From positions 1 through 22,692 of IMG/VR virus record IMGVR_UViG_3300047552_000818: a stretch of DNA of 22,692 nucleotides, one strand, 5' to 3'. Position 1 is the first letter of the stretch. Each line of letters starts with the position of its first letter. Positions 3,937 through 22,096 of the stretch are shown piece by piece. The position numbers were made by a program, and so were the translations under genes. Below the pieces are notes generated by a model. It saw nothing but the letters and a program-made list of their open reading frames with translations. It searched no databases and was not told the DNA's origin. Source of the stretch: a virus.

Positions 3937-4181
3937 GGTGCTACTGTTGCTATTTTACGTCTTGTTCCTTGGATAGTAATGGGAATGTTCGTTCCATCCC
4001 ACGTTCCTACGACAACGATGCCCTGTTTCTCCACACGTTCTAGTTGGGCTTCAAGTTTTGCAAGACGAGCCTCAACTTCGGCACTTAACGCAAGCGCATC
4101 ATTGCGTGCCTGTTTATTTGCGTCTTTCGTGTCTGTTGAGCTTCCTGCGTTTGCGTACATATTAGCGATAGTTATGGACAT
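3933..4181 (-). CDS. Small coiled-coil tail-module protein
   Basis: The open frame extends upstream to 4274, but the natural start is ATG 4181 (MSITIANMYANAG), because the longer N-terminus would lie inside the adaptor gene. That gives 82 residues and a 20-base overlap with the adaptor's stop at 4162. ATG 4160, just after that stop, is an alternative. Residues about 17-50 form a clear heptad-like helix (ALALSAEVEARLAKLEAQLE). The last 30 residues look like a small beta unit (VVVGTWDGTNIPITIQG). Small coiled-coil proteins between the adaptor and nozzle genes are common in podovirus-like genomes, but I recognise no family. It is translationally coupled to the downstream tail gene. Confidence 0.7.
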   Translation of the reverse strand: MSITIANMYANAGSSTDTKDANKQARNDALALSAEVEARLAKLEAQLERVEKQGIVVVGTWDGTNIPITIQGTRRKIATVAP

Positions 4182-4845
4182 TGGTTCGTAACTGTAGCTT
4201 GTCATCCCTGTCACGGCGGGCATAGTGGTCCACAACTCCGTTTTCCAGCTTGAATATCTCCTTCTCCAAGTCATCCATGATAGGCAGTTGGTTTATGAGC
4301 GCGAAGTCGTAGGCCGCATAGAGAGGTAAGATGCGGTGAAATAGTGAGGCGAAGCCCGGAGCTTTTGTTGTGTCGCTAACAAGGAAGTATTCAGGACCGC
4401 GTTTGTAGTAGGCCTTGAGGCTTGCGTCCTGTGAGTAATCTGGTTTTGGGTATAGTTTGACGGTGCTTCCAACCTTGTCGTAGTAGGCCGGGACACCTGC
4501 AGTCATCAAAAATGACGTTTCTGACTGTTGGTAGAGGTCTGCTGGGTCAATCGGCATGAGCTGTGCCCAATAACCATCGGAATCCTTACGTTCGAGACGT
4601 TCAAGTTCTAGGTGCGTGAGGTCAAGGGTGTAATCCTGTTGGTTTGCAACAAGCGGTGTCGTGGCGATAGGTAAATCTGTCTGGTTTCCATCATCCCACT
4701 GCCATCGTCCTTCAGCTTCTCTAATAAGGGCTACAACACGGTCTTGAGCGTTGTTAGCACTTACCGTGATGTCAGCAGTTGTGAAAGAGGTGGAGTCTGC
4801 TTTAACCAGTCGTCGCGCCTCCGCTAGTATTTGTGTGAACGTCAT
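4162..4845 (-). CDS. Head-tail adaptor (T7 gp11-like connector)
   Basis: This 227-aa protein is predicted to dock on the portal and link the head to the tail nozzle. It has an N-terminal helical part (ILAEARRLVKADS), a central part ending in the segment PAYYDKVG and LYPKPD (residues about 119-136), a following YYKRGPEYF, and C-terminal helices with FHRILPLYAAYDFALINQLP. The PxYY...LYPxPD pattern is characteristic of podovirus adaptor proteins. I chose ATG 4845, not the GTG at 4851, because TATAAT ends exactly seven bases before it, as in the portal gene. The N-terminal codons overlap the end of the upstream glycosyltransferase frame by 44 bases. Confidence 0.85.
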   Translation of the reverse strand: MTFTQILAEARRLVKADSTSFTTADITVSANNAQDRVVALIREAEGRWQWDDGNQTDLPIATTPLVANQQDYTLDLTHLELERLERKDSDGYWAQLMPIDPADLYQQSETSFLMTAGVPAYYDKVGSTVKLYPKPDYSQDASLKAYYKRGPEYFLVSDTTKAPGFASLFHRILPLYAAYDFALINQLPIMDDLEKEIFKLENGVVDHYARRDRDDKLQLRTNVHNYR

Positions 4846-6004
4846 TGCCACTATTATACACTATGGCGTTTAATGACTTCGCTATATCTTCACCGAGGGT
4901 GCTGTTGTTGTACTGCCAGTTTTGCGTGATGTGTTGCTTTGCCTGTTGTGCCATTTTCTTATACCTGTCGTGGTGAAGAACGGCATCTTCAAGTGTTTCG
5001 TACCAGTCATTCTTATTGCATAAGGCACCAGTCTTGCCGTCAGTGATGGTTTCTACACCCCGCACAGGCATGGAGTAGGGGTAGACGTTGCTTGCAATGG
5101 TGGGTATTTCAAACATTGAGTACTCCATCCATTTAATGTGTGATTTGGCACGGGTGAACTGTGTATCTACAAGCGGTGCAATGCCTACGTGCCACGGACG
5201 CTCTGAAAGCCACTTGGGGTACTCTCTAAACGTCGGTGTTGCACCAACAAGGGCCATTCTGAGCAGTAAGTCATCGTCTCCGGTCTTGAGGTGTGTGCCG
5301 ATGTGTTTTACGAGGTCTTTCATGCTTAAAAGTCCCAATACCTCGAACCATACGTGGTCATACTTACGCATTATCTCTAAAATGGGCTCTATAACCATGT
5401 CAAAGTCGTCTTTGTGCGAGTTTGAGCCTGAATACCCTATCGTAAACCTGTCTTTCGGTAGTTGTATGGGGGTTTCTGCCCAATCAGCCACGTCATTCAT
5501 GTTTGGAACGTGTATAAACGTCTTATTGAGCCCGTGACGCTCCTTAAAATGTGCATCGAGGCGGTTTTTCAGTGGAATTGTGCTTACTGAGATGGCATCA
5601 GCGAGGGAAAGTGTCGCAGAAAGGTAGGCTCGTTCGTGTTTGGTGTGCTTAAAGCGGTCATAGAGCTGGTTGCTCTCGGGTATATCAAGGTAATTGTCGT
5701 CTATGTCGATGATAACCTTCTTGCCGTGCTTCTGTGCATAGTAAAAAATAGCTCCTGCTGCGTGTGGATCAGCAAAGTAGCCAGTCCAAAACACATCAAA
5801 CTCCTTGAAGATGTTGTCCCACTGTTCTTCTATATTGCTACCGTAGGCAGTTATCTCCTGCCCGACGACACGAACATCATGGAACTTGGCGAGTTGTTCC
5901 ATTGGTTTGATGATGCGGTAATAGCCTATGCCACCATAGGTGTTCTTTACCTTACGTTCTGGTGTGTGTCCGTAATCGGTGAACGCCGCGAGTATCTTAG
6001 TCAT
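4802..6004 (-). CDS. GT-B fold glycosyltransferase (GT4-like)
   Basis: This 400-aa protein is likely a retaining nucleotide-sugar glycosyltransferase. The N-terminal Rossmann-like domain contains GGIGYYRIIKPMEQL (about residues 24-38), typical of the acceptor side of GT4 enzymes, and IIDIDDN (98-104). The C-terminal donor domain opens with GYSGSNSHKDDF (190-201) and has KWMEYSMFEIPTIAS, matching the acidic residue of the E-x7-E-like donor-binding region. Its start overlaps the upstream gene's stop (ATGA). Its last residues (YNSGNDVHTN onward) read through the promoter and start of the adaptor gene, so the natural end may have been lost on insertion. It is the final gene of the glycan cassette. 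The sugar and acceptor are unknown. Confidence 0.85.
   Translation of the reverse strand: MTKILAAFTDYGHTPERKVKNTYGGIGYYRIIKPMEQLAKFHDVRVVGQEITAYGSNIEEQWDNIFKEFDVFWTGYFADPHAAGAIFYYAQKHGKKVIIDIDDNYLDIPESNQLYDRFKHTKHERAYLSATLSLADAISVSTIPLKNRLDAHFKERHGLNKTFIHVPNMNDVADWAETPIQLPKDRFTIGYSGSNSHKDDFDMVIEPILEIMRKYDHVWFEVLGLLSMKDLVKHIGTHLKTGDDDLLLRMALVGATPTFREYPKWLSERPWHVGIAPLVDTQFTRAKSHIKWMEYSMFEIPTIASNVYPYSMPVRGVETITDGKTGALCNKNDWYETLEDAVLHHDRYKKMAQQAKQHITQNWQYNNSTLGEDIAKSLNAIVYNSGNDVHTNTSGGATTG
4853..4858 (-). promoter_or_regulatory. TATAAT promoter element directly upstream of the adaptor
   Basis: The minus strand reads TGTATAATAGTGGCAATG. A consensus -10 hexamer ends seven bases before the ATG, so transcription would begin at or near the start codon (leaderless type). 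The preceding bases ATAG are identical to those before the portal gene's equivalent element. This gives the tail module its own possible promoter inside the end of the glycosyltransferase gene. No clear -35 was seen. Confidence 0.5.
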
Positions 6005-6672
6005 GCCTCAATGCGTGGGGTTAAGTGCGGAACTGCGTGTATCACATCGCCACGGTAGGCTTCTGCAACAAGGTCAGTCCACGGTTGGTCTATGTAGTGT
6101 ACCTCAATTCCAGCTTTGTTGATTGCGTAGGGAAAAGAAATCTGGTCACGTACACTGTGACGGCAGTATTCTGCCCACCATGCATTGTTAAACGCCTCTG
6201 TACGGGCGTTATGCCTACGAATAATGAAGCTACACTCAGCAAGTCCACGATGTTTCCCATACCCGGAGTCTTCGTAGCCCTTCACCTGCTCAATAATCAC
6301 TTCAGGGTCGTCAAGTCTGTTCTTGGCACAGATAATCGCTTCGTCGTATAGGCAATCCCTATTTGGGTGCTTGAACACGGCAATGTCACTATCCTGTAGG
6401 TAACGCTCGACGACTTCTTCTGGTGTGATGAGTAGTTTTAGGTTTGCGTCCATCCATATGCTGTACTTGGTGTCTACGTACTGGTGTATGAGCATTTTGT
6501 GGATGCGCGAGTTTCGACGCTCACTCTTGAACCTATCGTGCACGGGGCGGTGTTCCCATGTCTTGCTACTGAACTGGTGTTCAGTGAACGCAAGCCACTT
6601 CGCACTTCCCTTGTTCTGGTCGTGGCGCAAGTCATCCTTACCGCCCGTCACTGCTGTAACGACGGTTATCAT
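6001..6672 (-). CDS. DUF616/TOD1-type glycosyltransferase-like protein
   Basis: This 223-aa protein matches the pattern of the DUF616 (TOD1/MUCI70) glycosyltransferase-like family: SIWMDAN at residues 71-77 (DxD-like), KHPNRDCLYDEA at 101-112, GLAECSFIIRRHN around 143-155, WW at 165-166 and QISF at 177-180. Members are GT-A-like and are known in plants and in bacterial and phage polysaccharide loci. Here it should act in the cytoplasm within the cassette. It has four-base ATGA overlaps with the genes on both sides, indicating strict translational coupling. Substrate is unknown. Confidence 0.8.
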   Translation of the reverse strand: MITVVTAVTGGKDDLRHDQNKGSAKWLAFTEHQFSSKTWEHRPVHDRFKSERRNSRIHKMLIHQYVDTKYSIWMDANLKLLITPEEVVERYLQDSDIAVFKHPNRDCLYDEAIICAKNRLDDPEVIIEQVKGYEDSGYGKHRGLAECSFIIRRHNARTEAFNNAWWAEYCRHSVRDQISFPYAINKAGIEVHYIDQPWTDLVAEAYRGDVIHAVPHLTPRIEA

Positions 6673-7451
6673 AGGAGGTGCGCTTCGCGTAGTACCTTGA
6701 GTCCATCGTCTTCCTCTGCGGTGTTTATGCCGTGCGTGTTCCCGATGTAGCCACGTTCACCCTCTATGCAGTACGCACTGACGCGATAGCTTGGTGACAT
6801 GAAGCCAACAAGGATGTTATTCGCCTCAATGAATCGTGCCATTGGGTATACCGTGGAGTTCCAGTCATAGAGCTCCTCTGTACCCTCACCAGCGGTTGTT
6901 TCTCCCTCACGGGTAAGCGTTGTGTCCGATAGGTCAAACTTCCCACCCATCTTCTCAAGTACGGAACGTGTGAAGAACTCGCACGAACCGCGCAGGTTCC
7001 CTTTAGGCATACCAAGTGAGTTTGCAAGTATCTCCCACTGACCGAATGAATCATCCTCAATAACATCTCGAAGCCACTTGTCGTTTAGTATGAGGTTGTC
7101 GTCATGGGTAAAGAGGAACAGGTCATAGTCTTTATAGTTATGCCCGGCAAGCCACTGATTTGAGTTACCCCAATCACCTATAGTGTTTGGGTGTTCCTCA
7201 TACGTCCAACCAAGTGCCTCTATTTCCTTCTTAGTGATGATGCGTTCGTAGAGTCTCTTGTCTAGGTCTGCACGATCGCCTGTGAACTCCCTACCCTTCT
7301 TCTCTTTCTTGGCGTGTTTTGGGTCGCGGTGTGATATACAGAAGAACTCATAGTCCCATCCTTCGGCACGCCTCTGCTTCAGCATCATCTCGTAAAACTG
7401 GCTTGGAAAATGCCAGCCCGACGCCACGACTGCTAGTCTTTTATTGGGCAT
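6669..7451 (-). CDS. GT-A glycosyltransferase-like protein
   Basis: This 260-aa protein begins with a beta strand typical of Rossmann-like GT-A folds (KRLAVVASGWHFPSQFYEMM). It has FLFTHDDNLIL at residues 112-122, where HDDN is a plausible DxD metal/nucleotide-sugar site. The region GNLRGSCEFFTRSVLEKMGGKFD and later aromatic segments fit the acceptor half of such enzymes. It overlaps the methyltransferase upstream by 19 bases and the DUF616 gene downstream by ATGA. A role in transferring a sugar in this cassette is inferred; the exact GT family is uncertain. Confidence 0.75.
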   Translation of the reverse strand: MPNKRLAVVASGWHFPSQFYEMMLKQRRAEGWDYEFFCISHRDPKHAKKEKKGREFTGDRADLDKRLYERIITKKEIEALGWTYEEHPNTIGDWGNSNQWLAGHNYKDYDLFLFTHDDNLILNDKWLRDVIEDDSFGQWEILANSLGMPKGNLRGSCEFFTRSVLEKMGGKFDLSDTTLTREGETTAGEGTEELYDWNSTVYPMARFIEANNILVGFMSPSYRVSAYCIEGERGYIGNTHGINTAEEDDGLKVLREAHLL

Positions 7452-7873
7452 AGTTCAAAGGTCATTTGGCGACCATTATTCTCTAATAAAGAAACCTTAA
7501 AGGGCTTGAAACCATACGATTTTCCGTACTGCTCATACCGCCTGTGGCCGTGTTCCATGTAGGTGAAGCTCTGGTCGGTGAACCGTCTACAATCTAGCGG
7601 ATCCTGCCATGCACAGATGTCTTCGGCATTCGGTACTCGTATCAGTATAGTGCCTTTTGTAACTCGGTGCAGTTCGTTCATCACAAAGATGAAGTCTGCG
7701 CCACGTTCTATCTGGGTTAAAACATTCTGCGCCACCACCTCGTCAAAGGAATTGTCTTCAAACGGGATACCGTCTAGTACGTTGAGAACTAGGTCCGGGC
7801 CTACATCACTTGATATGTCGGCGTTTATATAGCCCTCGCGTTTATCCCTACCACAGCCAAGGTTTAGTTTCAT
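7433..7873 (-). CDS. Class I SAM-dependent methyltransferase (short)
   Basis: This 146-aa protein starts with the SAM-binding motif KLNLGCGRDKREGYINADI (motif I, residues 2-20), followed by DLVLNVLDGIPFEDNSFDEV (motif II-like) and the strand TILIRVPNAEDI. It is shorter than most Methyltransf_11 proteins, so it may be a minimal domain. It overlaps the GNAT gene by ATGA. In this setting it most likely methylates a sugar (O- or N-methyl), but a protein or other substrate cannot be excluded. Confidence 0.8.
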   Translation of the reverse strand: MKLNLGCGRDKREGYINADISSDVGPDLVLNVLDGIPFEDNSFDEVVAQNVLTQIERGADFIFVMNELHRVTKGTILIRVPNAEDICAWQDPLDCRRFTDQSFTYMEHGHRRYEQYGKSYGFKPFKVSLLENNGRQMTFELCPIKD

Positions 7874-8187
7874 ATCTTATTCCAAGGTTTCATTTCTTTT
7901 AATGTGAGGCGCATTGCGGTATTGAGCCTATCGGTAAAGCCAAATGATTCATAGAAGGCTTTAATGTGTGGCTTGTCCTGTCGGACGGTCAACTCAACGC
8001 AGTCTGCACCCCTATCACGTGCTTCCTTTAATGCCTTGTTGATGAGTTCTGTTGCGTAGCCGTGCTTGCGGTGGTCTTCGCGTGTCCACACCTCCTCAAT
8101 CACGCACACATACCTCGACGGTAAGTGCACACAGTACATCTCAAGTGAGCTTATGACCTCGCCACCAATGTGTTTAGTGAACTTCAT
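7870..8187 (-). CDS. GNAT family N-acetyltransferase
   Basis: The acetyl-CoA binding motif is clear: TREDHRKHGYATELINKALK contains the R-x-x-G-x-A signature. It is followed by GADCVELTVRQDKPHIKAFY and SFGFTD, the usual final GNAT beta strand and helix. I start at ATG 8187 (MKFTKHIG), which overlaps the upstream stop as ATGA, rather than the longer non-ATG start at 8199. That gives 105 residues. Beside a DegT aminotransferase, the likely job is N-acetylation of the amino sugar made by the cassette. This is an inference from context. Confidence 0.82.
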   Translation of the reverse strand: MKFTKHIGGEVISSLEMYCVHLPSRYVCVIEEVWTREDHRKHGYATELINKALKEARDRGADCVELTVRQDKPHIKAFYESFGFTDRLNTAMRLTLKEMKPWNKI

Positions 8188-8921
8188 GGATAATACCACT
8201 CAATTCCTAGGTCTGCATACGTGTCGGGCGTGAACATTGCAAATGGATAGCACATGTTTCTGATGTCCCATCTGCGTATGTAGTTATCTACAGTGGTGAG
8301 TGTTCTGCCGGTCTTCACGATGTTGTTGGTGAACGGTATCTCACCTTCTAGGATTATGTTGCGCTGGGTTGTGCCCTCGTGGTAGGACAGGTTTCCATCT
8401 ACTGCAACGCTGTTCAGTACCTCCCTCGTTGTGTATCCAACCCCGCCATGACAATGTGTGGGGTATTGCTCATACCGTGAAATGCCAACAAGACCAACAA
8501 ACCCAACGTCACCCGTAAACGCATCGAGTATCTTCTTGTAGTACTGGTCGCCAAAGATAAGGATGTCTTCCTCAGTGAATATGAACCCGTCATGCGTAGT
8601 GTGTTTGTAGGCATAGTTGTAGCCACCAAAGCTCCCGCCCACATTCTCCCTGTCGAGTATGTTAAACCTACCATTCTTGGTTTGTGTTGCGTCGTACTTC
8701 TTCCACCAAGCATATGCCCACGGGCCGTTACAGACGATGACCGTGTCAAACTCAACACCACCGTCTATTGTCCTCTCGAGGTGTAGTATCAACTCCCACA
8801 GCTTCATCAGTTGAAACGTGGTTGTCTTGAGTTGAGGGTGGTGGGGAAAGTTTGCCTCTGGTCTGTGCTCCCGCACCAACCCATCACTGACGACGATTAC
8901 TTTACCGAGGCTATTGGGCAT
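8184..8921 (-). CDS. GT-A (GT2-like) glycosyltransferase
   Basis: With start ATG 8921 (MPNSLGKVIVVSDG), eight bases after the upstream stop codon, the protein has 245 residues. The open frame continues upstream to 8993 but would overlap the methyltransferase by 65 bases. It begins with a Rossmann strand KVIVVSDGL. It contains RENVGGSFGGYNYAYK and FIFTEEDILIF, where TEED (about residues 116-119) is the likely metal-binding acidic motif of GT-A enzymes. Later segments (GGVGYTTREVL) fit an acceptor loop. It is the first of four glycosyltransferase-like genes in the cassette. Donor and acceptor are unknown. Confidence 0.78.
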   Translation of the reverse strand: MPNSLGKVIVVSDGLVREHRPEANFPHHPQLKTTTFQLMKLWELILHLERTIDGGVEFDTVIVCNGPWAYAWWKKYDATQTKNGRFNILDRENVGGSFGGYNYAYKHTTHDGFIFTEEDILIFGDQYYKKILDAFTGDVGFVGLVGISRYEQYPTHCHGGVGYTTREVLNSVAVDGNLSYHEGTTQRNIILEGEIPFTNNIVKTGRTLTTVDNYIRRWDIRNMCYPFAMFTPDTYADLGIEWYYP

Positions 8922-8928
8922 ATATGTT

Positions 8929-9423
8929 TTATGCCCTAGTAAGTACTGCGTTGTATACGCCACTATCACCTTTCCCATAGCGGTCTTCCTCAAAGAAGGC
9001 GTCTAGGACGCGAAGTCCTACACTGGCACAGTAGTCGAGAAACTCCTGGTGAGGTACCGCTTGCCATATCTTCATGTGAGGCAAGTTACCCTCAGCACCG
9101 AAGCATATAAACATCACTCCGTCATCCTTGAGCCATTGCAGGTTATGTTTAATGGTTTCCTGCCACGTTAGGTCGTGCTCAAACACTGAGAACATGGCAA
9201 TGGTGTCGAACTTAGTACTGAACTGCGTTTCAGTGGCGTTCGCAACAATGTCTACCCCATTTCCGGCTACACGGTCCACACCTACATACTCACAGTCAGT
9301 AAAGTAATCCCGTATTGACCCGTTTACGTCCTGTGAACCTATCTCTAGTACGGAGCAGTTGCTGAAGCTCTTTGGGTACGTTGTGCGTAAGTCCTCTAGC
9401 CACTTCCTGTTGTTTAGATGCAT
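8929..9423 (-). CDS. SAM-dependent methyltransferase
   Basis: This 164-aa class I methyltransferase has motif I as SVLEIGSQDVNGSIRDYF (about residues 24-41), the acidic strand-2 end YVGVDRVAGNGVD, and the post-strand-4 motif FDTIAMFSVFEHDLTWQ. The C-terminal residues form the expected beta hairpin (SGVYNAVLTRA). The glycine-rich loop has S in place of a usual third glycine, which is tolerated in sugar/polysaccharide methyltransferases. It overlaps the aminotransferase by 10 bases. Probable substrate is the sugar or glycan made by neighbours; this is inferred. Confidence 0.8.
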   Translation of the reverse strand: MHLNNRKWLEDLRTTYPKSFSNCSVLEIGSQDVNGSIRDYFTDCEYVGVDRVAGNGVDIVANATETQFSTKFDTIAMFSVFEHDLTWQETIKHNLQWLKDDGVMFICFGAEGNLPHMKIWQAVPHQEFLDYCASVGLRVLDAFFEEDRYGKGDSGVYNAVLTRA

Positions 9424-10424
9424 AGTGAAGCTATGTTATGTGCCTGTTCCTTCGTTACTCCGTGGTGGAGTGGTACAAAGAAGTATGTGTTTTCTAACTT
9501 ATCCATTACGGGGCAATCCGTCTTGTATTGCTTGAAGATGCTGTACTTGTCATTTCTGTAGTGGTGCTGGCCTATCTCTATACCGTTGTCTGCCATCTTC
9601 TGTTTGAGCTCTTGGTAGTGGTCGGTGAAGCCTCCTGCGAGCCATATGTGGCTGAATAAGCCGTAGCTGTAGTAGATGTCGCCGAGCTCCTTGCGGTGAT
9701 TCACGAGTTCATCTATGTGCAGTAAGTTACCACGCCCTATCGCGGCGTTGATGTTGTTCATGTGGTACTTATACCCCGCTTCGGTAAGGTCTGTGTCTCC
9801 TAGCTTGTGCTTGAGGTCTCTGTCGTAACCGAACCAGCGAAGCCTGCGGGCTTTGTTGCCTTGCTCGTGGTCTTTGGTGATAAGAAATCCACCGTCACCA
9901 CTCGTGAGGGTTTTGATGGCTTGGAGACTGACTGCGGTGTAGTCGCTGACGCCCCAGTAATCGCTTCCCACTGCTTGTGCAGCATCTTCGATGACTGGTA
10001 ATCCCAGACCCAATAGTTCTTCAAGTCCACGGTTGTTACCTCCGAAGTGTACGAAGACGATTGCTTTGGTCTTCGGGGTGATTTTCCTTTTGACGTCTTC
10101 AACGGAGATGTTGAGGTCTTCGTCGATGTCAGCGAATACGATGCGAGCCTTTCTCCTAACCAACGGGAGATTCGTAGCAGTACACGTGAGAACCGGAGTG
10201 ATAACCTCGTCACCCTCCCGTATTCCTGCGAGCTCATACGCCAACTCAAGCGCGCTAGTTCCGCTGTTAAGTGACACAGCGTTCGGTAAATGAAACTTTG
10301 TTTGAAACTCATGCTCAAATAGTTTTACTTCTTCCCCTTCTGCTAATTGACCAGACTGAAGCACACGCTGTACGTTCTCGCGGGCTTCATCTGATACGAA
10401 TGGCTGGAACAGCTTTATTGCCAT
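9414..10424 (-). CDS. DegT/DnrJ/EryC1/StrS family PLP sugar aminotransferase
   Basis: This 336-aa fold-type I aminotransferase converts a keto sugar nucleotide to an amino sugar using glutamate or glutamine. Visible hallmarks are LNSGTSALELA (about 52-62, phosphate-binding loop), GDEVITPVLTCTATN (71-85), VIEDAAQAVG (144-153, the Asp that pairs with the PLP ring nitrogen) and SLQAIKTLTSGDGG (166-179, Lys171 as Schiff-base lysine). It is somewhat shorter than the usual 360-400 residues. It lies directly downstream of an RmlB-like dehydratase with a 10-base overlap, the typical pair for 4-amino-4,6-dideoxy or 3-amino-3,6-dideoxy sugars. The position aminated cannot be told. Confidence 0.9.
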   Translation of the reverse strand: MAIKLFQPFVSDEARENVQRVLQSGQLAEGEEVKLFEHEFQTKFHLPNAVSLNSGTSALELAYELAGIREGDEVITPVLTCTATNLPLVRRKARIVFADIDEDLNISVEDVKRKITPKTKAIVFVHFGGNNRGLEELLGLGLPVIEDAAQAVGSDYWGVSDYTAVSLQAIKTLTSGDGGFLITKDHEQGNKARRLRWFGYDRDLKHKLGDTDLTEAGYKYHMNNINAAIGRGNLLHIDELVNHRKELGDIYYSYGLFSHIWLAGGFTDHYQELKQKMADNGIEIGQHHYRNDKYSIFKQYKTDCPVMDKLENTYFFVPLHHGVTKEQAHNIASLCI

Positions 10425-11422
10425 AGTGGGTGGTCGTGATACCAGTCTATGTACTTCTTGAGTGATTCATCAAGGTCGCGGGGTGCTTTCCAGCCTAACT
10501 CCTTGAGCTTTGTACCATCAAGTGCATAACGGCGATCGTGACCTGGCCGAGTCGCATGATGGTCAACAAACTTGTATTTAAGTGGCTTGCCTATTATCCC
10601 TGCAACCTTCTCAGCAAGTGCGAGGTTGTCTAACTCCTGGTCGCCAACGATGTTGAATCGTGTCGGTCTGTCCACACCAGTACCATCTGAGTATTCTGCT
10701 GGGGCTACGTTCTGCATGATGTACAGCAGTGCGTTGGCTTGGTTACGTGCGTGTAGGTAGTAGCGTGAGCCAACTGCGCCGGGCTTACCGTGCACTGTTA
10801 CTTCCTCGCCGGCACTAATCTTCTTAATGAGTTGTGCCGTGTACTTCTCGGCATCTTGCATCTCTCCAAAAAGATTCATTGTATTGGTAATAATCACAGG
10901 CACACCGTATGTGCGCCAGTATGATACGCAGATTGCCTCCTGACACGCCTTAGATGCGCTGTAGGGATTGCTGGGGAGTATTGTTGCCCATTCCTTGTGA
11001 TTTACACCGTCAGGTGCAGGGCCATATACTTCATCGGTGCTTATCTGCATGAAGGTTATTGGCTTCACCTCACGGGCGAACTCGAGCATGTTAAGCATAA
11101 GTGCCACGTTGTTCATCACAAACGGCACAGGGTCGGTAATGCTTCTGTCTACGTGGCTTTCACTCGCTACGTTGATGATGAAGTCTACGATGCCGATACG
11201 CTTCTTGGTTGTCTCTGTGAATGGAGCCGATAGGTCGTGGGTTATTATCTCCACGCGGTCTTTCCACGCAGGATTACCCCTGAGCACTTCTTCAATGCGT
11301 TCTGGTGTGCCCTTGTGTGTCCATGCTGCGACACCAACAACGTCTAGGTCTGTGTTCGTTAATATCTCTTGAAGAACATGGGAACCCATGAAGCCCGCCA
11401 CCCCGGTCAAAAGCACCTTCAT
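10415..11422 (-). CDS. rmlB: dTDP-glucose 4,6-dehydratase-like NDP-sugar dehydratase
   Basis: This is a 335-aa extended short-chain dehydrogenase. It has the NAD-binding TGVAGFMGSH (6-15), the RmlB signature ASESHVDRSI (86-95), STDEVYG (128-134) with the Thr-Asp-Glu dehydration residues, and YSASK (154-158) with catalytic Tyr and Lys. It should convert an NDP-glucose to the 4-keto-6-deoxy form, the substrate for the next gene's aminotransferase. No nucleotidyltransferase (RmlA-type) is in the window, so the activated sugar presumably comes from the host. The start lies one base after the stop of the upstream small gene. The signature points to dehydratase rather than epimerase; the nucleotide is not determined. 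Confidence 0.88.
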   Translation of the reverse strand: MKVLLTGVAGFMGSHVLQEILTNTDLDVVGVAAWTHKGTPERIEEVLRGNPAWKDRVEIITHDLSAPFTETTKKRIGIVDFIINVASESHVDRSITDPVPFVMNNVALMLNMLEFAREVKPITFMQISTDEVYGPAPDGVNHKEWATILPSNPYSASKACQEAICVSYWRTYGVPVIITNTMNLFGEMQDAEKYTAQLIKKISAGEEVTVHGKPGAVGSRYYLHARNQANALLYIMQNVAPAEYSDGTGVDRPTRFNIVGDQELDNLALAEKVAGIIGKPLKYKFVDHHATRPGHDRRYALDGTKLKELGWKAPRDLDESLKKYIDWYHDHPLWQ

Positions 11423-11423
11423 A

Positions 11424-11708
11424 CTAAGAGAAGAATACCTCGCGTCCTTCTTCTGTCTTAATGTAGTTCAGGACGTGGTGTACCTTGTCTAGTGCCGCGG
11501 TGCGACTATTGTGCGGGGCAATCATTCCATTGGGGAATGAGTAGGTATAATTCGGGTCTTGTTCTTCCCTGATGTCGTCTGTCGGCACCGGGCACACATC
11601 CCTGCCATCAAGTTTAATGTTGGACAGTCCAGCCCTATTCGGGTTTGGTACTATCGCTAGTCGCGGGTCCAGCGTCTTCAGCTCCTTCTCGAAGTCTGAG
11701 GTTTTCAT
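11424..11708 (-). CDS. Small hypothetical phage protein (94 aa)
   Basis: I recognise no family. The protein is soluble and mixed in charge, with motifs SNIKLDGRDVCPVP and SFPNGMIAPHNSR and a C-terminal helix. There is no membrane segment or signal. It overlaps the end of the preceding gene by 74 bases in another frame, and its stop lies one base before the rmlB-like start. It therefore links the capsid genes to the glycan cassette in one transcript. A virion or capsid-accessory role is possible from position alone. Confidence 0.75.
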   Translation of the reverse strand: MKTSDFEKELKTLDPRLAIVPNPNRAGLSNIKLDGRDVCPVPTDDIREEQDPNYTYSFPNGMIAPHNSRTAALDKVHHVLNYIKTEEGREVFFS

Positions 11709-11892
11709 ATGTCTCTATGGCGTTAATTGCTAAGTTAAAGGCTACTGAAGCGATGTTCAGTGTCTTCTTAGATTCTACCTTATTTTTGACTCCGTAGCTT
11801 TTGCCGTTGTATACAAACGTGTACGCTATGAAGCCGTTGTTGACTGTCAACTCAATGGGACAGTCTTTATAGACGAATTGTGAGATTTGCAT
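11635..11892 (-). CDS. Small hypothetical protein downstream of capsid gene
   Basis: This 85-aa frame starts at ATG 11892 (MQISQFVYKD). The frame is open further up to 11961, but ATG 11892 has a strong ribosome-binding site, GAGGAAG six bases upstream, which is exceptional in this genome. The N-terminal half is beta-like (PIELTVNNGFIAYTFVYNGK) and the C-terminal half helical with an acidic tail. Function is unknown; such genes after the major capsid gene are often head-completion or decoration proteins, but nothing here proves it. Alternative hairpins just upstream could control its translation. Confidence 0.7.
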   Translation of the reverse strand: MQISQFVYKDCPIELTVNNGFIAYTFVYNGKSYGVKNKVESKKTLNIASVAFNLAINAIETYENLRLREGAEDAGPATSDSTKPE

Positions 11893-11900
11893 GATTGCTT

Positions 11901-11938
11901 CCTCTTTGTTGGCTCCCCCAAAGAGGTAGGGAAGCCAA
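11901..11938 (-). promoter_or_regulatory. Alternative hairpins overlapping the ribosome-binding site of the 11892 gene
   Basis: In the mRNA, TTGGCTTCCC (11938-11929) can pair with GGGGAGCCAA (11918-11909) with one G-U pair. Alternatively CCTCTTTG (11926-11919) can pair perfectly with CAAAGAGG (11908-11901), which contains the GAGG of the ribosome-binding site. Full versions of both helices cannot coexist because there is no linker, so the region can switch between an open and a closed site. This is seen in sequence; regulation is inferred. Confidence 0.45.
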
Positions 11939-11953
11939 ACAATCTTGGTAATG

Positions 11954-11968
11954 CCCCCCAAGCGGGGG
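11954..11968 (-). other. GC-rich hairpin after the major capsid gene
   Basis: The minus strand reads CCCCCGCTTGGGGGG, a five-base-pair stem with a four-base loop, starting four bases after the capsid stop codon at 11973. No T-run follows, so it is unlikely to be an intrinsic terminator. It may protect the abundant capsid mRNA end or slow read-through. Confidence 0.4.
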
Positions 11969-11972
11969 ACTG

Positions 11973-12968
11973 CTACGCAGTAGAGAATCCGTCAGTTGCT
12001 CCTGTCTTCAAGTTAATGAGCCAGTTGCTATTGAGGGTCTTTGCTACGAACGGCATCTTCCAACCAACTGTCGAGAATTGGTCGATAGGGTTGTCAGTGC
12101 TGTTAGCGCCCGGGTTCTTGACGTACACCTTAGGTGCGCGGATTGAACCGAGGTTGATAACGCCGTAAGCTTCCTTTCCGAAGAAGAAGTTGCTGTAGAC
12201 GTTTGCCACGTTAGTTGCGCTCGTTGAGAAGCCAGCGGTCAGCGTGTAGAGCTGGTCATTGGTTTCAACAAACTCAACACCGTGGAGCTTGCCGATAACA
12301 CCACGCATGATTGCATCAGCGTTAGTGTAGCGGTGTGCATCGAGCCACTCAGAGTTACCCATGAGGTCCATTGCTGTGTGAGGACCGACGATTGCTCGGT
12401 ACATTCCATTCTCAAACTTTGGAGCCTTGGCTACTTTAAGTGAGCGAACCACACGACGAACTTCGAGGCCCGTAAGGGTGTCGGAGGTGTGAATGGTTGA
12501 TACAGCAGTCGTTGAACCTGCTGCGCCACCTGTTGAGGTGGATACAAGAAGATTCGTTGCGCCTGTTGCAAGCTCGGTGCGGATAAGTCGGTCAATCGTT
12601 TCGCCGGCGTTCTGACCGTGGATTTCCACATGCTCACGAAGACCATCCTCGATGGTTGTAAGTGAGTAGAGGGAACCTACAGTAGTGTATGCACCGTAAT
12701 CTGCGAGTACCGCTGATACAGTTGCTGCCGTCATATCGACTGCCGAAGGGTTTGCTGCTTCAGAGAGAGCTGTCGTTGCGAGGGCGAGAGGTGAGAAACG
12801 TGTGAAATACACGGTCTTTCCACTGTTAAGCGGAATGTTCTTTACCTGTGCGCCGAAATCGTGGCGAAGCTCTGTCTTAGCACGCTCAAGGAATACTCGG
12901 TCGTAAAAAATCTGCATTGGACTCGTTAGACCTGGGTTTGCGCCTTGAGCAAAGGTTGTAGTTGCCAT
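11973..12968 (-). CDS. Major capsid protein (N4-gp56 family)
   Basis: This 331-aa HK97-fold capsid protein matches the N4-gp56 family: an N-terminal arm and SPMQIFYDRVFLERAK, then GKTVYFTRFSPLALATTAL (about 50-68), the segment LADYGAYTTVGSLYSLTTIED, a conserved KFENGMYRAIVGPHTAMDLM (about 182-201), and FFFGKEAYGVINLG toward the C-terminus. It follows a scaffold-like gene and a portal gene, the usual order. The start ATG 12968 has no Shine-Dalgarno site. The family is found in podo-, sipho- and myovirus-like phages, so it does not fix morphotype. Confidence 0.9.
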   Translation of the reverse strand: MATTTFAQGANPGLTSPMQIFYDRVFLERAKTELRHDFGAQVKNIPLNSGKTVYFTRFSPLALATTALSEAANPSAVDMTAATVSAVLADYGAYTTVGSLYSLTTIEDGLREHVEIHGQNAGETIDRLIRTELATGATNLLVSTSTGGAAGSTTAVSTIHTSDTLTGLEVRRVVRSLKVAKAPKFENGMYRAIVGPHTAMDLMGNSEWLDAHRYTNADAIMRGVIGKLHGVEFVETNDQLYTLTAGFSTSATNVANVYSNFFFGKEAYGVINLGSIRAPKVYVKNPGANSTDNPIDQFSTVGWKMPFVAKTLNSNWLINLKTGATDGFSTA

Positions 12969-12987: not shown

Positions 12988-13467
12988 CTAATAAGGGTCA
13001 GCGTGTGGCAATATCTTTTCTAAATCCGCAACAGACATATTTTTAAGCTGTTCTGGGGTGTATTTACGCTCCACTTCGGTTTGTCCTTGGGTGGAGTTTA
13101 CGGCTGATGATGCTTCCTCGGCACGTCTCTGTTCATGCACTGTGCGCATGGCAACAGCTACGTAGGAGTTTGCGTCTTCTAGGGCTTTCTTACCACCGTT
13201 GCGTTGTATGAACTCAGCATCGGCTTTGGTGTACCCCTGACGGATCATGTCAGCTACTTCCCATATCTTCTCATCTATACTCTCTTGCGGTCTTGCCACC
13301 GCTTCTTGTGCTTTTGGTTCAGTAGCACGCTGTTTGTACTTGTGAGCCATTGCTTTGTATTTCAAAGCCTCAGCTCGCCAGTCTTTATCTTCTGTTGTGG
13401 TTTCTGTAACCTCAACTAACTCATCCGTTTGTTCAGGTTGGATTTCCTGTGTGTCATCAGTGTCCAT
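12988..13467 (-). CDS. Scaffold-like protein
   Basis: This 159-aa, highly charged protein is mostly helical. An acidic disordered N-terminus (residues 1-30, DTDDTQEIQPEQTDELVEV) is followed by a basic helix (DWRAEALKYKAMAHKYKQRA), a middle helical part, and a C-terminus with RKYTPEQLKNMSVADLEKIL. This composition and the position between portal and major capsid genes are typical of phage scaffolding proteins, which are poorly conserved in sequence. No protease motif is seen. It is inferred to guide procapsid assembly. Confidence 0.75.
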   Translation of the reverse strand: MDTDDTQEIQPEQTDELVEVTETTTEDKDWRAEALKYKAMAHKYKQRATEPKAQEAVARPQESIDEKIWEVADMIRQGYTKADAEFIQRNGGKKALEDANSYVAVAMRTVHEQRRAEEASSAVNSTQGQTEVERKYTPEQLKNMSVADLEKILPHADPY

Positions 13468-13549: not shown

Positions 13550-13787
13550 TAAATGGGTTCTTTATCTTCTCTATCTTGCGCTGTACGATGCCGGTGTCAT
13601 TAAGGAAGTCTGCGAGTTTGTTGTAGGCAAGCACCCTACCAACGACTTCTGCTTTCAGGTGTTCTGCTGGTTGGGTAAGGTCGAGCGTATTCATGTCCTT
13701 TAGTGGCTCGATGTACTTCTCAACCATATCCTCTACCTGCGCCCAGTCCGGGTCGCTAAAGAACTTCTGATAGAGCTTCTCGTTCAT
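13545..13787 (-). CDS. Small hypothetical protein between portal and scaffold
   Basis: This 80-aa soluble helical protein starts MNEKLYQKFFSDPDWAQVED. Its C-terminus is basic (VQRKIEKIKNPFR). The ATG overlaps the portal stop by four bases, so it is translationally coupled to the portal gene. Small proteins at this position are common in phages with N4-gp56 capsids but I cannot assign a function. Confidence 0.75.
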   Translation of the reverse strand: MNEKLYQKFFSDPDWAQVEDMVEKYIEPLKDMNTLDLTQPAEHLKAEVVGRVLAYNKLADFLNDTGIVQRKIEKIKNPFR

Positions 13788-15607
13788 AGTCTCTGTACGG
13801 TGGGCTGTTGAGGTGCTTGTGGTAATGCGGCGTTAGGTTGCTGTGGAGCCTGAAGCTGTGCCTGTTGAGCTTGCTGTTGTATTTGTTCTGCTTGCTGGTC
13901 GGCGAGCTCCATTTCTGCGGGGCTGACACCGAGTTGCTCTGCATACTTGAAGAACAGCATCTTTGCGCGTGGGTCTTGTAGGCCATATGTCTGTAGGAGT
14001 GGCGTGAGGACGGCAAGGGTGTTGTTCACCATAAGGTTCGGGTCTGCCTGTTCATTACCGATGATGAAGTCAAACTCAAACTCAGCGTCATCATAGAACG
14101 CTTCCTTTATCTTGAGGAAGCGGTTTTCACCGTTCTTGCGGTAAGCCTCTATGGCCTTCTGCTTGAGCGCTTCTACGTCTGCTGGGTCTATATACACTCC
14201 GGTGAGGAGCCTGTCTTTTATGTAGTCACTTGCGACAATCTCTGATGCTGCCTGGTCGAGCTTGAGTAGCTCCTGTCCATTGCCTGTAAAGCGCATGATG
14301 TGTTCGGGTGTGAGGTCTTTCATCAACTGCGGTAGGACGAGCTCATTGAAGAACTCCTGTAGGAATAGGGTGAGGTTCTCACGCTTAAAGGCAAACACAT
14401 TCGTTGCCTGTTGTGTGGCGATAAGAGCGTTTGTTGCGGGAGTTGAGCTGGGGAGTGACTGTCCTGACACGGCTTCATAGGCAAATGTAATCTTATCTGC
14501 CTGTGCCATGTAGCTTTCTTCCTCTTGGCTAAATGCCGGGAGGTTGCGTTCCTCGTTAGCTATAGCTTCTATACCTGATGGTGAGCGTATGAGGTCGCCA
14601 TTCTGTAGGTCAGTAAGTACATTGCGTACAACAGTCTTGTCCTTGGTTTGGAACAGGTGCAGGGATGATAGTTCCATTGAGATGCGCTTGCCGTTCTTGA
14701 GCTCATTGACACGTGTCTGTATGTCGAAAAGGCTCTCAGGGATACCCATGCCGAGCCATCTACCAGGAACCCTTGTGTAGTGATAGTCCTTATACGGCCA
14801 TTCTTTGTGCCACTTTGAGCTAAAGAGTGTGATGCCAGCTTCACCTGTTACTTGCTTCTGCTCGTTTACCTCCTGTACGTCTGCGCCAGCAACAATAAAG
14901 AGTGCACGGACCATTTCATCTGAGTCGCTACCATCAAGCCAGCCCTTCTTAACCTCACCATAGCGCTTGTATACCTTGATGTATGGCGTGCTACTAAGCT
15001 GATTGACGTTGCCACCTGTGTCTTCAAATGACTCCGGGAGTTCTGCACTGCCGAAGCGTTCTATTGCAATATCTACGTTGTCCCAGCCCGTCTCTCGTAG
15101 CTGAGATGGTGTCATGTAGTGGATTGTTGTCACAAAACGACTGTCGTCTATGCACTCTACGGTAGGATCAAGGATAAGTCGGCGCAAATCTACTGCTTCT
15201 GCTCCGTCCTTGGTCTTTTCTATGACAAATGAGCCATACTTAGGTGCATCTTCGGCCATTTTGTTGAGCAACTTGCCCATCTCAGACCGCTTGAGCCATA
15301 CCTTCAGCTCCCTCTCGAGTAAGTAGGTGCTGTAGTAGCTCTTTGGGTTCATGGGCCACAAGCGTATGTTCTTTGTGTCCACGTTAAGCATCTTTGTTGC
15401 CACTTCGCACGGTGCAGTTGTTATGTTGAAGAAGATGAGCTCTCGGTTGAGGTAGGTGCCACCATTCTCGTACTTGCTGTTGAGATATAGGTGTGCACGT
15501 TTGAGCGTGTCGTACTGGTTGAAAGAGTAGCCAGGAACGACTGTTATCGAACTATTATAAAAGTCCTCGTTCTCTTTCCGTATTTGTGCGTATATAGATG
15601 CTTGCAT
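13784..15607 (-). CDS. Portal protein
   Basis: This 607-aa protein is predicted to form the dodecameric DNA entry ring in the capsid vertex. The start is ATG 15607 (MQASIYAQIRKENEDF); a TTG six bases upstream is unlikely. It carries a wing/stem region with RWLGMGIPESLFDIQTRVNE and a long helical crown region with QSLPSSTPATNALIATQQAT. The C-terminus is Q/A/P-rich and disordered (about 560-607). Size, position directly after TerL and these motifs fit the portal family used by N4-gp56 phages. A TATAAT hexamer ends seven bases before the ATG. Confidence 0.88.
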   Translation of the reverse strand: MQASIYAQIRKENEDFYNSSITVVPGYSFNQYDTLKRAHLYLNSKYENGGTYLNRELIFFNITTAPCEVATKMLNVDTKNIRLWPMNPKSYYSTYLLERELKVWLKRSEMGKLLNKMAEDAPKYGSFVIEKTKDGAEAVDLRRLILDPTVECIDDSRFVTTIHYMTPSQLRETGWDNVDIAIERFGSAELPESFEDTGGNVNQLSSTPYIKVYKRYGEVKKGWLDGSDSDEMVRALFIVAGADVQEVNEQKQVTGEAGITLFSSKWHKEWPYKDYHYTRVPGRWLGMGIPESLFDIQTRVNELKNGKRISMELSSLHLFQTKDKTVVRNVLTDLQNGDLIRSPSGIEAIANEERNLPAFSQEEESYMAQADKITFAYEAVSGQSLPSSTPATNALIATQQATNVFAFKRENLTLFLQEFFNELVLPQLMKDLTPEHIMRFTGNGQELLKLDQAASEIVASDYIKDRLLTGVYIDPADVEALKQKAIEAYRKNGENRFLKIKEAFYDDAEFEFDFIIGNEQADPNLMVNNTLAVLTPLLQTYGLQDPRAKMLFFKYAEQLGVSPAEMELADQQAEQIQQQAQQAQLQAPQQPNAALPQAPQQPTVQRL

Positions 15608-15614
15608 TGTCAAT

Positions 15615-15622: not shown

Positions 15623-16813
15623 CTATCGAATCTGCGACCTTGCGCGGTTCTGTAGCACGCGGAACTCATCAAGTGGATCAAAGCCACGTTCTGTCATCAG
15701 CATGTTGGTCATGGCATACCTGACGGCATCTAGGGAATGACTGAACTGGTGTTCAGGAACCCGCAGTATCTTGCCATCTTTATCTGTCTTCCACAGGTAG
15801 TTACGGTACTCCCGTATGACATCTATTGAGCGCTTTGTTATGCTCATGCGCTGGCTTTGCACGAGCTGTATACCGTATTCTACACTATCTGGTCCCTTCT
15901 CTGCCGGGGTTATGCTTACACCGTAGGCCATTATCTCATCTATGCTCTTAGGTTCTGCGCTGTCAGCTACACAGAGGGTGCGGATTTCCTGTGAGTTGAG
16001 TATGTCGGCGAGCTGTTTGTTTGAAAGACCCTTCTGGTAGGTTATTTGGTCAAGGATATAGCCACCGTTGTAGTAGTAAATCGCCACGATTGCGCTGGGG
16101 TCGTTTGAATAGCCGAAGTCTAGCCCGAAGCGCTCAAGCCGTGCTTGGTGTGGGATTTCATCAACAATGTCCCAATCCTTATATATCTTGCCTTCTACCT
16201 CGCCAAGCTGTCCTTCTCCGTATACCTTCCACCAGGAGGCATTATTCTTGCGTTGCTCTATGGCTTTGACGATGTTCTCATCAAGGGCTTCGTTGTCTCT
16301 GTAGGTGAGGATGATGTGCTCGGCATCGTCGCGCTTACCTATAACGTGGTCATACACCCAAAACTCTGCAACAGGGTTCCAGTCAATGATAATAAACTCC
16401 TTAGTACGAACCTCGAGCTGGTCAAAGGCTTCATAGGGTACGTTGTTTGCCTCGTTTATGAATAATCTGTCTCGGCGTGGACCGCGCACCTTACCTGGTT
16501 GGTCGGCTGAGAAGAACTCTATCTTGCTACCTGTTTCAAAGGTGTAGACGTAGTCGCTTCTGTTCCAGCGTTTGTCGTCATAGTAGTTGTGCTGTTCCAT
16601 TATTAAGAGGAAGTCGCGCATTGCTCCTCTTTTAAGGTGTGGGAATGACTCACTTACGACTGAGGTGAGTGTGGGTGTTTTATCCATTTGTGCCCGGGCT
16701 ATGAGGTACAGTAAAGCACTTATCGTCTTGCTTGCAGACGTTCCTCCTTGTATGCACCGGATACGCTTAGTCAGTGCTGAGATCCTCTTTGTTGCCGTCG
16801 TCTCTTTGAACAT
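15623..16813 (-). CDS. terL: Terminase large subunit
   Basis: This 396-aa packaging motor has an N-terminal ATPase with Walker A QGGTSASKT (residues 22-30) and Walker B RLFINEAN (116-123, catalytic Glu121). A C-terminal RNase H-like nuclease has its acidic residues in GLDFGYSNDPS (Asp232), CVADSAEP (Asp284) and HSLDAVRY (Asp362). It is slightly short for the family (400-500), but both domains are complete. The start overlaps the small terminase gene by 47 bases. With the small subunit it cuts and packages concatemeric DNA into procapsids. Confidence 0.93.
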   Translation of the reverse strand: MFKETTATKRISALTKRIRCIQGGTSASKTISALLYLIARAQMDKTPTLTSVVSESFPHLKRGAMRDFLLIMEQHNYYDDKRWNRSDYVYTFETGSKIEFFSADQPGKVRGPRRDRLFINEANNVPYEAFDQLEVRTKEFIIIDWNPVAEFWVYDHVIGKRDDAEHIILTYRDNEALDENIVKAIEQRKNNASWWKVYGEGQLGEVEGKIYKDWDIVDEIPHQARLERFGLDFGYSNDPSAIVAIYYYNGGYILDQITYQKGLSNKQLADILNSQEIRTLCVADSAEPKSIDEIMAYGVSITPAEKGPDSVEYGIQLVQSQRMSITKRSIDVIREYRNYLWKTDKDGKILRVPEHQFSHSLDAVRYAMTNMLMTERGFDPLDEFRVLQNRARSQIR

Positions 16814-19454: not shown

Positions 19455-19741
19455 GTGAGCAGTATCGTACACTGTTTGAACAATATGATTGGCCTATAGA
19501 AACTGCACTTGCTATATGTCAGTTGGAGAGTGGCGGTGTGGCTACTGCAAGTAATTGGAAGGACTCGCACGAAGGATGCAATGGTTCGTTCGGAATTATG
19601 CAGATTGGTTGCCTGCACGGTGTTGATCGGGAGGAGTTGTACGACCCGGCGACCAATGTTAAGGTGGCTTTCATGCTGTGGAAGGATAGTGGTTTTACAC
19701 CTTGGAGTACGTATAAGAAATTACTAGCACTAAACAACTAA
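19403..19741 (+). CDS. Lysozyme-like transglycosylase domain in the -1 frame
   Basis: The frame encodes about 112 residues with the lytic transglycosylase/goose-lysozyme-like motif LAICQLESGGVATASN (Glu as catalytic acid), GSFGIMQIG and LYDPATNVKVAFMLWKDSG. Residues before it (CEQYRTLFEQYDWPIETA) are part of the same fold, yet no ATG or GTG lies in frame upstream; the only start is a TTG after the domain has begun. The domain therefore should be made by -1 frameshifting from the membrane-anchored frame, giving a 189-aa product that is exported and cleaves peptidoglycan for lysis. A broken gene is the alternative. Confidence 0.75.
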   Translation, partial: NLAPIPVTPTLTKGGRGCEQYRTLFEQYDWPIETALAICQLESGGVATASNWKDSHEGCNGSFGIMQIGCLHGVDREELYDPATNVKVAFMLWKDSGFTPWSTYKKLLALNN

Positions 19742-21727: not shown

Positions 21728-22096
21728 ATGGAAATAGAGAAAAGCCCAACGGGTATGAAGCTACCGAAAAGGTCTGGTAGAGCTGGGTATGTGTATGTGG
21801 TTCGTTGTAATTGCTGTGAGAGTTTTTATAAGATTGGTAGATCAAAAAGCGTACCGAGAAAAAGGATTAAGTCTTACATTACAAACAACCCACATGGAGT
21901 TGAGTACATTTTTGGGTTTCGTGTAAAAAACAGCTATGAACGCGCGGAGTGGGCTACTCATGTGCTGCTTTCGAGATATCACCACCACAATGAGTGGTTT
22001 TATGACGAGGGAAATAATCTTGAAGACATTTGTTTTAGTCTGACAAGCAGTGAAACAAGTCACGGTTCCGATTTTAAGAGACTCATAAAGATATAG
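21728..22096 (+). CDS. GIY-YIG superfamily nuclease (T5orf172/MUG113-like)
   Basis: The 122-aa protein has GYVYVVRCNCCESFYKIGRS (about 20-39), which contains the GIY and YIG equivalents (YVYVV and YKIG). Arg46, then ERAEWATHVLLSRYHHHNEW (about 71-90) provide the conserved basic and Glu residues of the T5orf172/MUG113 branch. The core is complete. There is a 32-residue C-terminal tail. The start follows a structured leader, and it ends one base before the initiator gene. It likely acts as a DNA nuclease in replication or homing; role uncertain. Confidence 0.78.
   Translation: MEIEKSPTGMKLPKRSGRAGYVYVVRCNCCESFYKIGRSKSVPRKRIKSYITNNPHGVEYIFGFRVKNSYERAEWATHVLLSRYHHHNEWFYDEGNNLEDICFSLTSSETSHGSDFKRLIKI

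Follow-up and report, generated by a model that had tools for sequence, protein, structure and literature searches.

Gene content and layout of the locus

The analysed stretch of DNA, hereafter the window, is a viral contig of 22.7 kb with a podovirus-type late operon on the - strand. The gene order on this strand is TerS, TerL, portal, scaffold, major capsid protein, two small genes, a block of nine co-oriented genes (4802-11422), a head-tail protein and tail-type genes. All nine reading frames of the block are open and in order. The features are listed in - strand order.

15623-16813 (-): terminase large subunit (phrog_2, 3.5e-34)
13784-15613 (-): portal, T7 gp8-like (phrog_332, phrog_1216)
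12988-13467 (-): scaffold protein (phrog_2592, 5e-4)
11973-12968 (-): major capsid protein (phrog_1357, 1e-55)
11635-11961 (-): x1, small protein between capsid and x2 (no Pfam match)
11424-11708 (-): x2, small conserved protein, usual left border (no Pfam or PHROG match)
10415-11422 (-): RmlB, RmlB-type NDP-hexose 4,6-dehydratase of the SDR type (Pfam GDP_Man_Dehyd, 9e-47)
9414-10424 (-): DegT, DegT-family sugar aminotransferase, probably acting at C4 (Pfam, 3e-68)
8929-9423 (-): MT1, Rossmann methyltransferase, swapped part (Methyltransf_23, 7e-8; phrog_32762, 3e-21)
8184-8921 (-): GTA, probable GT-A glycosyltransferase, swapped part (Glyco_tranf_2_5, 2e-4, below cut-off)
7870-8187 (-): GNAT, short acetyltransferase of about 105 aa (Acetyltransf_1, 2e-13)
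7433-7873 (-): MT2, Rossmann methyltransferase, frequent in relatives (Methyltransf_11, 9e-5)
6669-7451 (-): GTB, glycosyltransferase with predicted GT-A fold (model pLDDT 93.6; no profile match)
6001-6672 (-): GTC, TOD1/MUCI70-like GT-A glycosyltransferase (Pfam TOD1_MUCI70, 1e-25)
4802-6004 (-): GTD, GT4-like glycosyltransferase, invariant gene of the locus (phrog_7162 glycosyltransferase, 2e-29)
4162-4851 (-): head-tail structural protein, conserved right border (phrog_399 and phrog_2941, head and packaging, weak)

The junctions were re-measured. RmlB/DegT and DegT/MT1 overlap by 10 bases each, GNAT/MT2, GTB/GTC and GTC/GTD by 4 bases each, and MT2/GTB by 19 bases. The GTA/GNAT overlap is 4 bases with an ATG start or 16 with a GTG. 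The only gap, of 7 bases, separates MT1 from the ATG of GTA at 8921. The overlaps of 4-19 bases and the single gap given in an earlier sequence-only reading of this DNA are thus exact. At the borders, one base lies between RmlB and the preceding gene x2, and GTD shares 44 bases with the head-tail gene. A scan for promoters and terminators inside the block returned signals no higher than chance.

That reading had also placed the cassette between the capsid and head-tail genes, which was confirmed with intact frames and neighbours identified by profile. The cassette does not follow the capsid gene directly, as two small conserved genes (about 11424-11961) intervene. Homologues of x2 were found in about 54 loci, and x2 is a candidate acceptor or assembly protein. 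Elsewhere in the window, on the + strand, there are a short gene of lysozyme type (SLT_3) that encodes 72 aa and has a sub-threshold Pfam match (19523-19738) and, in the early region, a T5orf172 (GIY-YIG-like) gene (21728-22093).

Four of the nine products had been called glycosyltransferase-like, and rightly so: GTB and GTC have predicted GT-A folds, GTC and GTD match profiles, and GTA is the weakest case. The structure-based search that had been suggested was run for GTB and GTC, and both predicted models match GT-A glycosyltransferases. Foldseek paired the GTB model with WrtF, TarP and SpsA at about 1e-6, and the GTC model (pLDDT 92) with proteins of the UGGT and GT6 type. GTA was considered as a member of the GTB family and dropped; iterative searching links the two, single-sequence profile comparison does not. 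Among related loci, the nearest relative of MT1 is 34% identical and lies in L065. L016 carries a 32% homologue of GTA in the corresponding place and a 64% homologue of GNAT, and MT2 homologues in relatives are 65-70% identical.

Predicted sugar chemistry and supply of the activated sugar

RmlB contains the TDE and YxxxK motifs, as read from its sequence, and its best PDB matches are dTDP-glucose 4,6-dehydratases (3e-41). Against NCBIfam TIGR01181 it scored 1.7e-64 and 218 bits, which is resemblance only, since the equivalog cut-off is 365. The family of DegT is certain; its best PDB matches are 4zwv, 4xau and 4zas (CalS13), and its best NCBIfam match is PseC, below cut-off. The CalS13 aminotransferase acts at C4 of a TDP-4-keto-6-deoxy sugar. 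Neither RmlB nor DegT reaches any equivalog cut-off, and a dTDP-4-amino-4,6-dideoxyhexose is our best guess for the cassette product. Taken together, the family and fold assignments support the earlier proposal that the virion operon holds a full complement of enzymes to make an amino-deoxy sugar, modify it and transfer it.

No nucleotidyltransferase was found in the window. Of 23 phage records (the window and 22 relatives), 22 lack RmlA (NTP_transferase, PF00483), and one relative has one. NTP_transferase was detected in eight of the nine Patescibacteria genomes that carry GTB, and in three it adjoins the RmlB homologue. These counts (1/23 phage records, 8/9 host-type genomes) support the earlier proposal that the host must supply the sugar nucleotide. 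A cluster of proteins of about 280 aa in the relatives was considered as RmlA and rejected, as it has no NTP_transferase match and its translations, judged by eye, resemble GT-B transferases.

A fixed transferase and a variable middle in related phages

Capsid-based searches gave about 58 loci with more than 44% identity. The close phage relatives are all uncultivated, and many of their contigs are fragments. Their open reading frames were called by a simple longest-first method, which may miss short genes. For comparison we used the 32 loci that have both the capsid and the head-tail gene, a few of them from near-identical contigs. GTD lies between these two genes in all 32, and in 31 it is the last cassette gene; the exception is L065, where a methyltransferase stands between GTD and the head-tail gene. 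A chance arrangement is excluded by this conservation. The cassette is thus part of the virion operon and not a separate moron, in agreement with the sequence-only reading. Glycosyltransferase genes conserved in or beside the structural operon are a mark of phage virion glycosylation, and they were found here in 32/32 loci.

The remaining content varies. The interval from capsid to head-tail gene ranges from 1.5 to 9.1 kb; DegT is present in 26 of the 32 loci, GTC in 25, an SDR in 19 and GTB in 11. The deep relatives L058, L064, L065 and L067 have GTD with little else. Other variants encode C-methyltransferase, cupin, cytidylyltransferase-like and UDP-glucose-dehydrogenase-like proteins or HNH/AP2 endonucleases. 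An alternative sugar module with an antibiotic-sugar-type C-methyltransferase and a cupin, often with an added cytidylyltransferase-like protein, was seen in six loci (L008:8674-10180, L028, L037, L038, L040 and L048). The HNH/AP2 genes lie within cassettes (L016:13376-14020, L045:14312-14776) and are possible agents of module exchange. In L009 the portal and GTD are broken over several frames, by assembly error or decay, and the L016 contig carries a further GT2 glycosyltransferase within its first 14 kb, not in the cassette (L170:3527-4495).

The suggested comparison of gene order with relatives that have no cassette was also run. The cultured Bacillus phage Pony and Paenibacillus API480 (capsid about 30% identical) have no block at this place, only small genes. 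In Podoviridae sp. ctQWt234 (MW202801; capsid 26%) different glycan genes occupy the same place, with a GTD homologue last. A search of cultured phages for near DNA matches to the window returned none, and GTB was not found in cultured phages.

Pairwise protein distances were compared with portal distances. The correlation (rho) was 0.78 for GTD, 0.76 for the head-tail protein and 0.68 for the capsid, and the GTD value includes a contribution from physical linkage to the head-tail gene, which alone would make GTD co-diverge with the structural genes. GTB (10 taxa) gave 0.66 and GTC 0.49. Values were low for DegT (0.21) and for RmlB (0.10), where the RmlB-type rows include paralogous SDRs. As GTD correlates about as well as the head-tail protein and DegT and RmlB poorly, we infer that GTD is passed on together with the head genes and that the sugar module is exchanged. 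Other phage lineages have relatives of GTB, GTC and DegT as well, at sites away from the capsid gene. The idea that GTB-bearing cassettes of other phages likewise follow a capsid gene directly was rejected, the genes of 420-490 aa there being GT4 glycosyltransferases. In another phage group with distant portals (L017-L021), RmlB is 61-67% identical to that of the window, and a GTD homologue lies nearby in most.

These data bear on the suggestion that the genes might be a mobile unit unrelated to late expression. It fails for GTD, which always lies between capsid and head-tail genes and tracks the portal. For the sugar genes it holds in half, since they are swapped among relatives and have kin elsewhere in other phages.

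Kinship with Patescibacteria

All nine cellular relatives of GTB that were found are in Patescibacteria MAGs (9/9). Seven of the nine carry, upstream of GTB, a DegT gene 56-64% identical to that of the window, and often an SDR and a methyltransferase in between or alongside. Next to this chromosomal cluster, SDR-DegT-methyltransferase-GTB, are a GT4 and a PMT-like membrane protein. The nine Patescibacteria sequences form one group in the GTB tree, beside the phage group (90/84), and the exchange is therefore old. Kinship of the DegT-GTB cluster with these chromosomes indicates that the sugar is probably of a host-surface type.

A peptide-pattern search for the capsid in 84,980 genomes gave no confirmed match. 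A profile search found a capsid relative in 2 of 380 sampled genomes, all of the phylum to which one of these Patescibacteria belongs. In L168, a contig in a Patescibacteria MAG, a capsid gene (30%) is followed by small genes, a GT2, a methyltransferase, an SDR, a deacetylase and GTD, with long unannotated genes beyond. Gene kinship and, weakly, co-binning suggest Patescibacteria as the host of these phages, a link and not a proof. Both this link and the polymorphism at the level of the locus are additions to the sequence-only reading.

Interpretation of the locus

We interpret the block as a glycan locus of the virion operon, whose sugar would be transferred to a putative virion-protein acceptor, and give this a probability of roughly 0.6. 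Virion glycosylation is favoured over host-surface modification, and this in turn over DNA glycosylation, because no integrase, lipid-carrier transferase, predicted flippase or consistent set of 5-hydroxymethyl-base genes was found.

The strongest competitor, to which we give a minor though real chance, is that the infected cell has its own glycans changed by these enzymes, for superinfection exclusion or episymbiont adhesion. A similar role has been published for groundwater Patescibacteriota phages, whose rmlB and comparable genes were proposed as auxiliary metabolic genes for host adhesion (PMC12911398). The chromosomal SDR-DegT-methyltransferase-GTB cluster with its closely related DegT points the same way, and export by the host itself could still be supplied by a soluble set of enzymes. 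Against this stands the late structural position in every relative. Integrase was found in 0/23 records (control search: 14/14), although the records may be incomplete and the search did not extend to serine recombinases. The initiating sugar-1-phosphate transferase PF02397 was likewise found in 0/23 (control search: 9/14). None of the window's cassette proteins is a flippase or polymerase candidate; their maximum 19-residue hydropathy is 1.36, below the threshold of 1.6, so that no multi-membrane protein was predicted, and no flippase-type protein was evident in the relatives either.

We consider it improbable that the transferases instead put sugar on hydroxymethylated bases of the phage DNA. 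Phage transferases are known that place a variety of glycans on DNA (Pyle 2024, as cited in PMC12619734). In L119 (13176-13946) and L112 (13173-13979), of a different phage group, a Tet_JBP-like 2OG oxygenase gene lies downstream of a related GTC-DegT-GTB-GTD-like set and upstream of the terminase, which suggests DNA glycosylation in that phage group. This oxygenase has no homologue in the window, its relatives or further stretches of the contigs of nine relatives; the Pfam Tet_JBP search gave zero matches anywhere and is hence uninformative. Among the 23 records, a thymidylate-synthase-type enzyme (PF00303) occurs in one, with a stop inside, and a C5 methyltransferase above cut-off in just four. 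Moreover, DNA-modifying genes need no place between capsid and head-tail genes. Least probable, by a little, is mobile cargo in a permissive late-operon site, with no virion function: the middle genes swap, several cassettes contain HNH/AP2 endonuclease genes and GTB has moved among phage lineages, but GTD is kept in 32/32 loci and co-diverges with the portal, and most relatives, like the window, have intact cassette frames.

For virion glycosylation we propose the following course. During late expression the phage would draw on dTDP-glucose of a host that has RmlA. RmlB would convert it to the 4-keto-6-deoxy sugar, and DegT would aminate this, most likely at C4, to give dTDP-4-amino-4,6-dideoxyhexose. 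GNAT and the methyltransferases could cap the sugar, and GTA, GTB and GTC may build a short chain. GTD, acting in the cytoplasm, probably makes the initial bond to a virion protein. With left and middle genes traded among relatives, the sugar would change while GTD and the adjoining structural genes stay.

More tentatively, and at somewhat less than even odds, a lineage of short-tailed Patescibacteria phages may have, within the virion operon, an obligatory, polymorphic glycan locus of O-antigen-like build, with a coat sugar of host type (glycan mimicry) that is traded among strains and an anchoring transferase inherited with the head. Sugar genes of metagenomic phages are routinely labelled auxiliary metabolic genes for the host surface. 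Here the position, one invariant transferase and the exchange of the other genes favour the virion, and offer a testable alternative for a large annotation class. If the host belongs to the Patescibacteria, the locus would also open a way to study particle assembly in phages of ultra-small episymbionts, and would supply uncharacterised glycosyltransferases (GTB) and amino-sugar pathways.

Comparison with known systems

In serotype conversion of the gtrABC type, membrane proteins and lysogeny are defining. The window cassette differs in having no predicted membrane flippase or membrane transferases, and integrase was found in 0/23 records. Bacterial O-antigen and capsule loci share with it the conserved border gene or genes and the variable middle of sugar-synthesis and transferase genes; unlike them, it shows no polymerase, flippase or lipid-carrier transferase and sits in a virion operon.

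With the dTDP-4-amino-4,6-dideoxyhexose pathways of Rml/DegT (CalS13) type, the locus has in common a dehydratase followed by an aminotransferase, which would act on a dTDP-4-keto-6-deoxy sugar as judged from the best PDB matches. It differs in that the phage has no RmlA and its enzymes score below equivalog cut-offs. The O-antigen nucleotide-sugar genes of groundwater Patescibacteriota phages (PMC12911398) are alike in phage rmlB, related genes and the same likely host phylum; they were read as host-adhesion genes, whereas the window locus is tied to the capsid/head-tail operon. ctQWt234 agrees in layout, with a GTD homologue as the last of the glycan genes that separate the capsid gene from later structural genes, but its enzymes are an Fe-S oxidoreductase, PhyH and a NodB-like protein, and its capsid is 26% identical.

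In mycobacteriophages, virions are glycosylated, with glycans at the C-termini of capsid and tail tube subunits (Freeman 2023, as cited in PMC12619734). Compared with that account, phage-encoded glycosyltransferases are a shared feature, and a glycan on head or tail subunits would be another. Beyond what is described there, the window adds a full nucleotide-sugar branch (RmlB, DegT, GNAT and methyltransferases) and four transferases in a podovirus-type operon, and its lineage combines a conserved transferase with swapped sugar genes.
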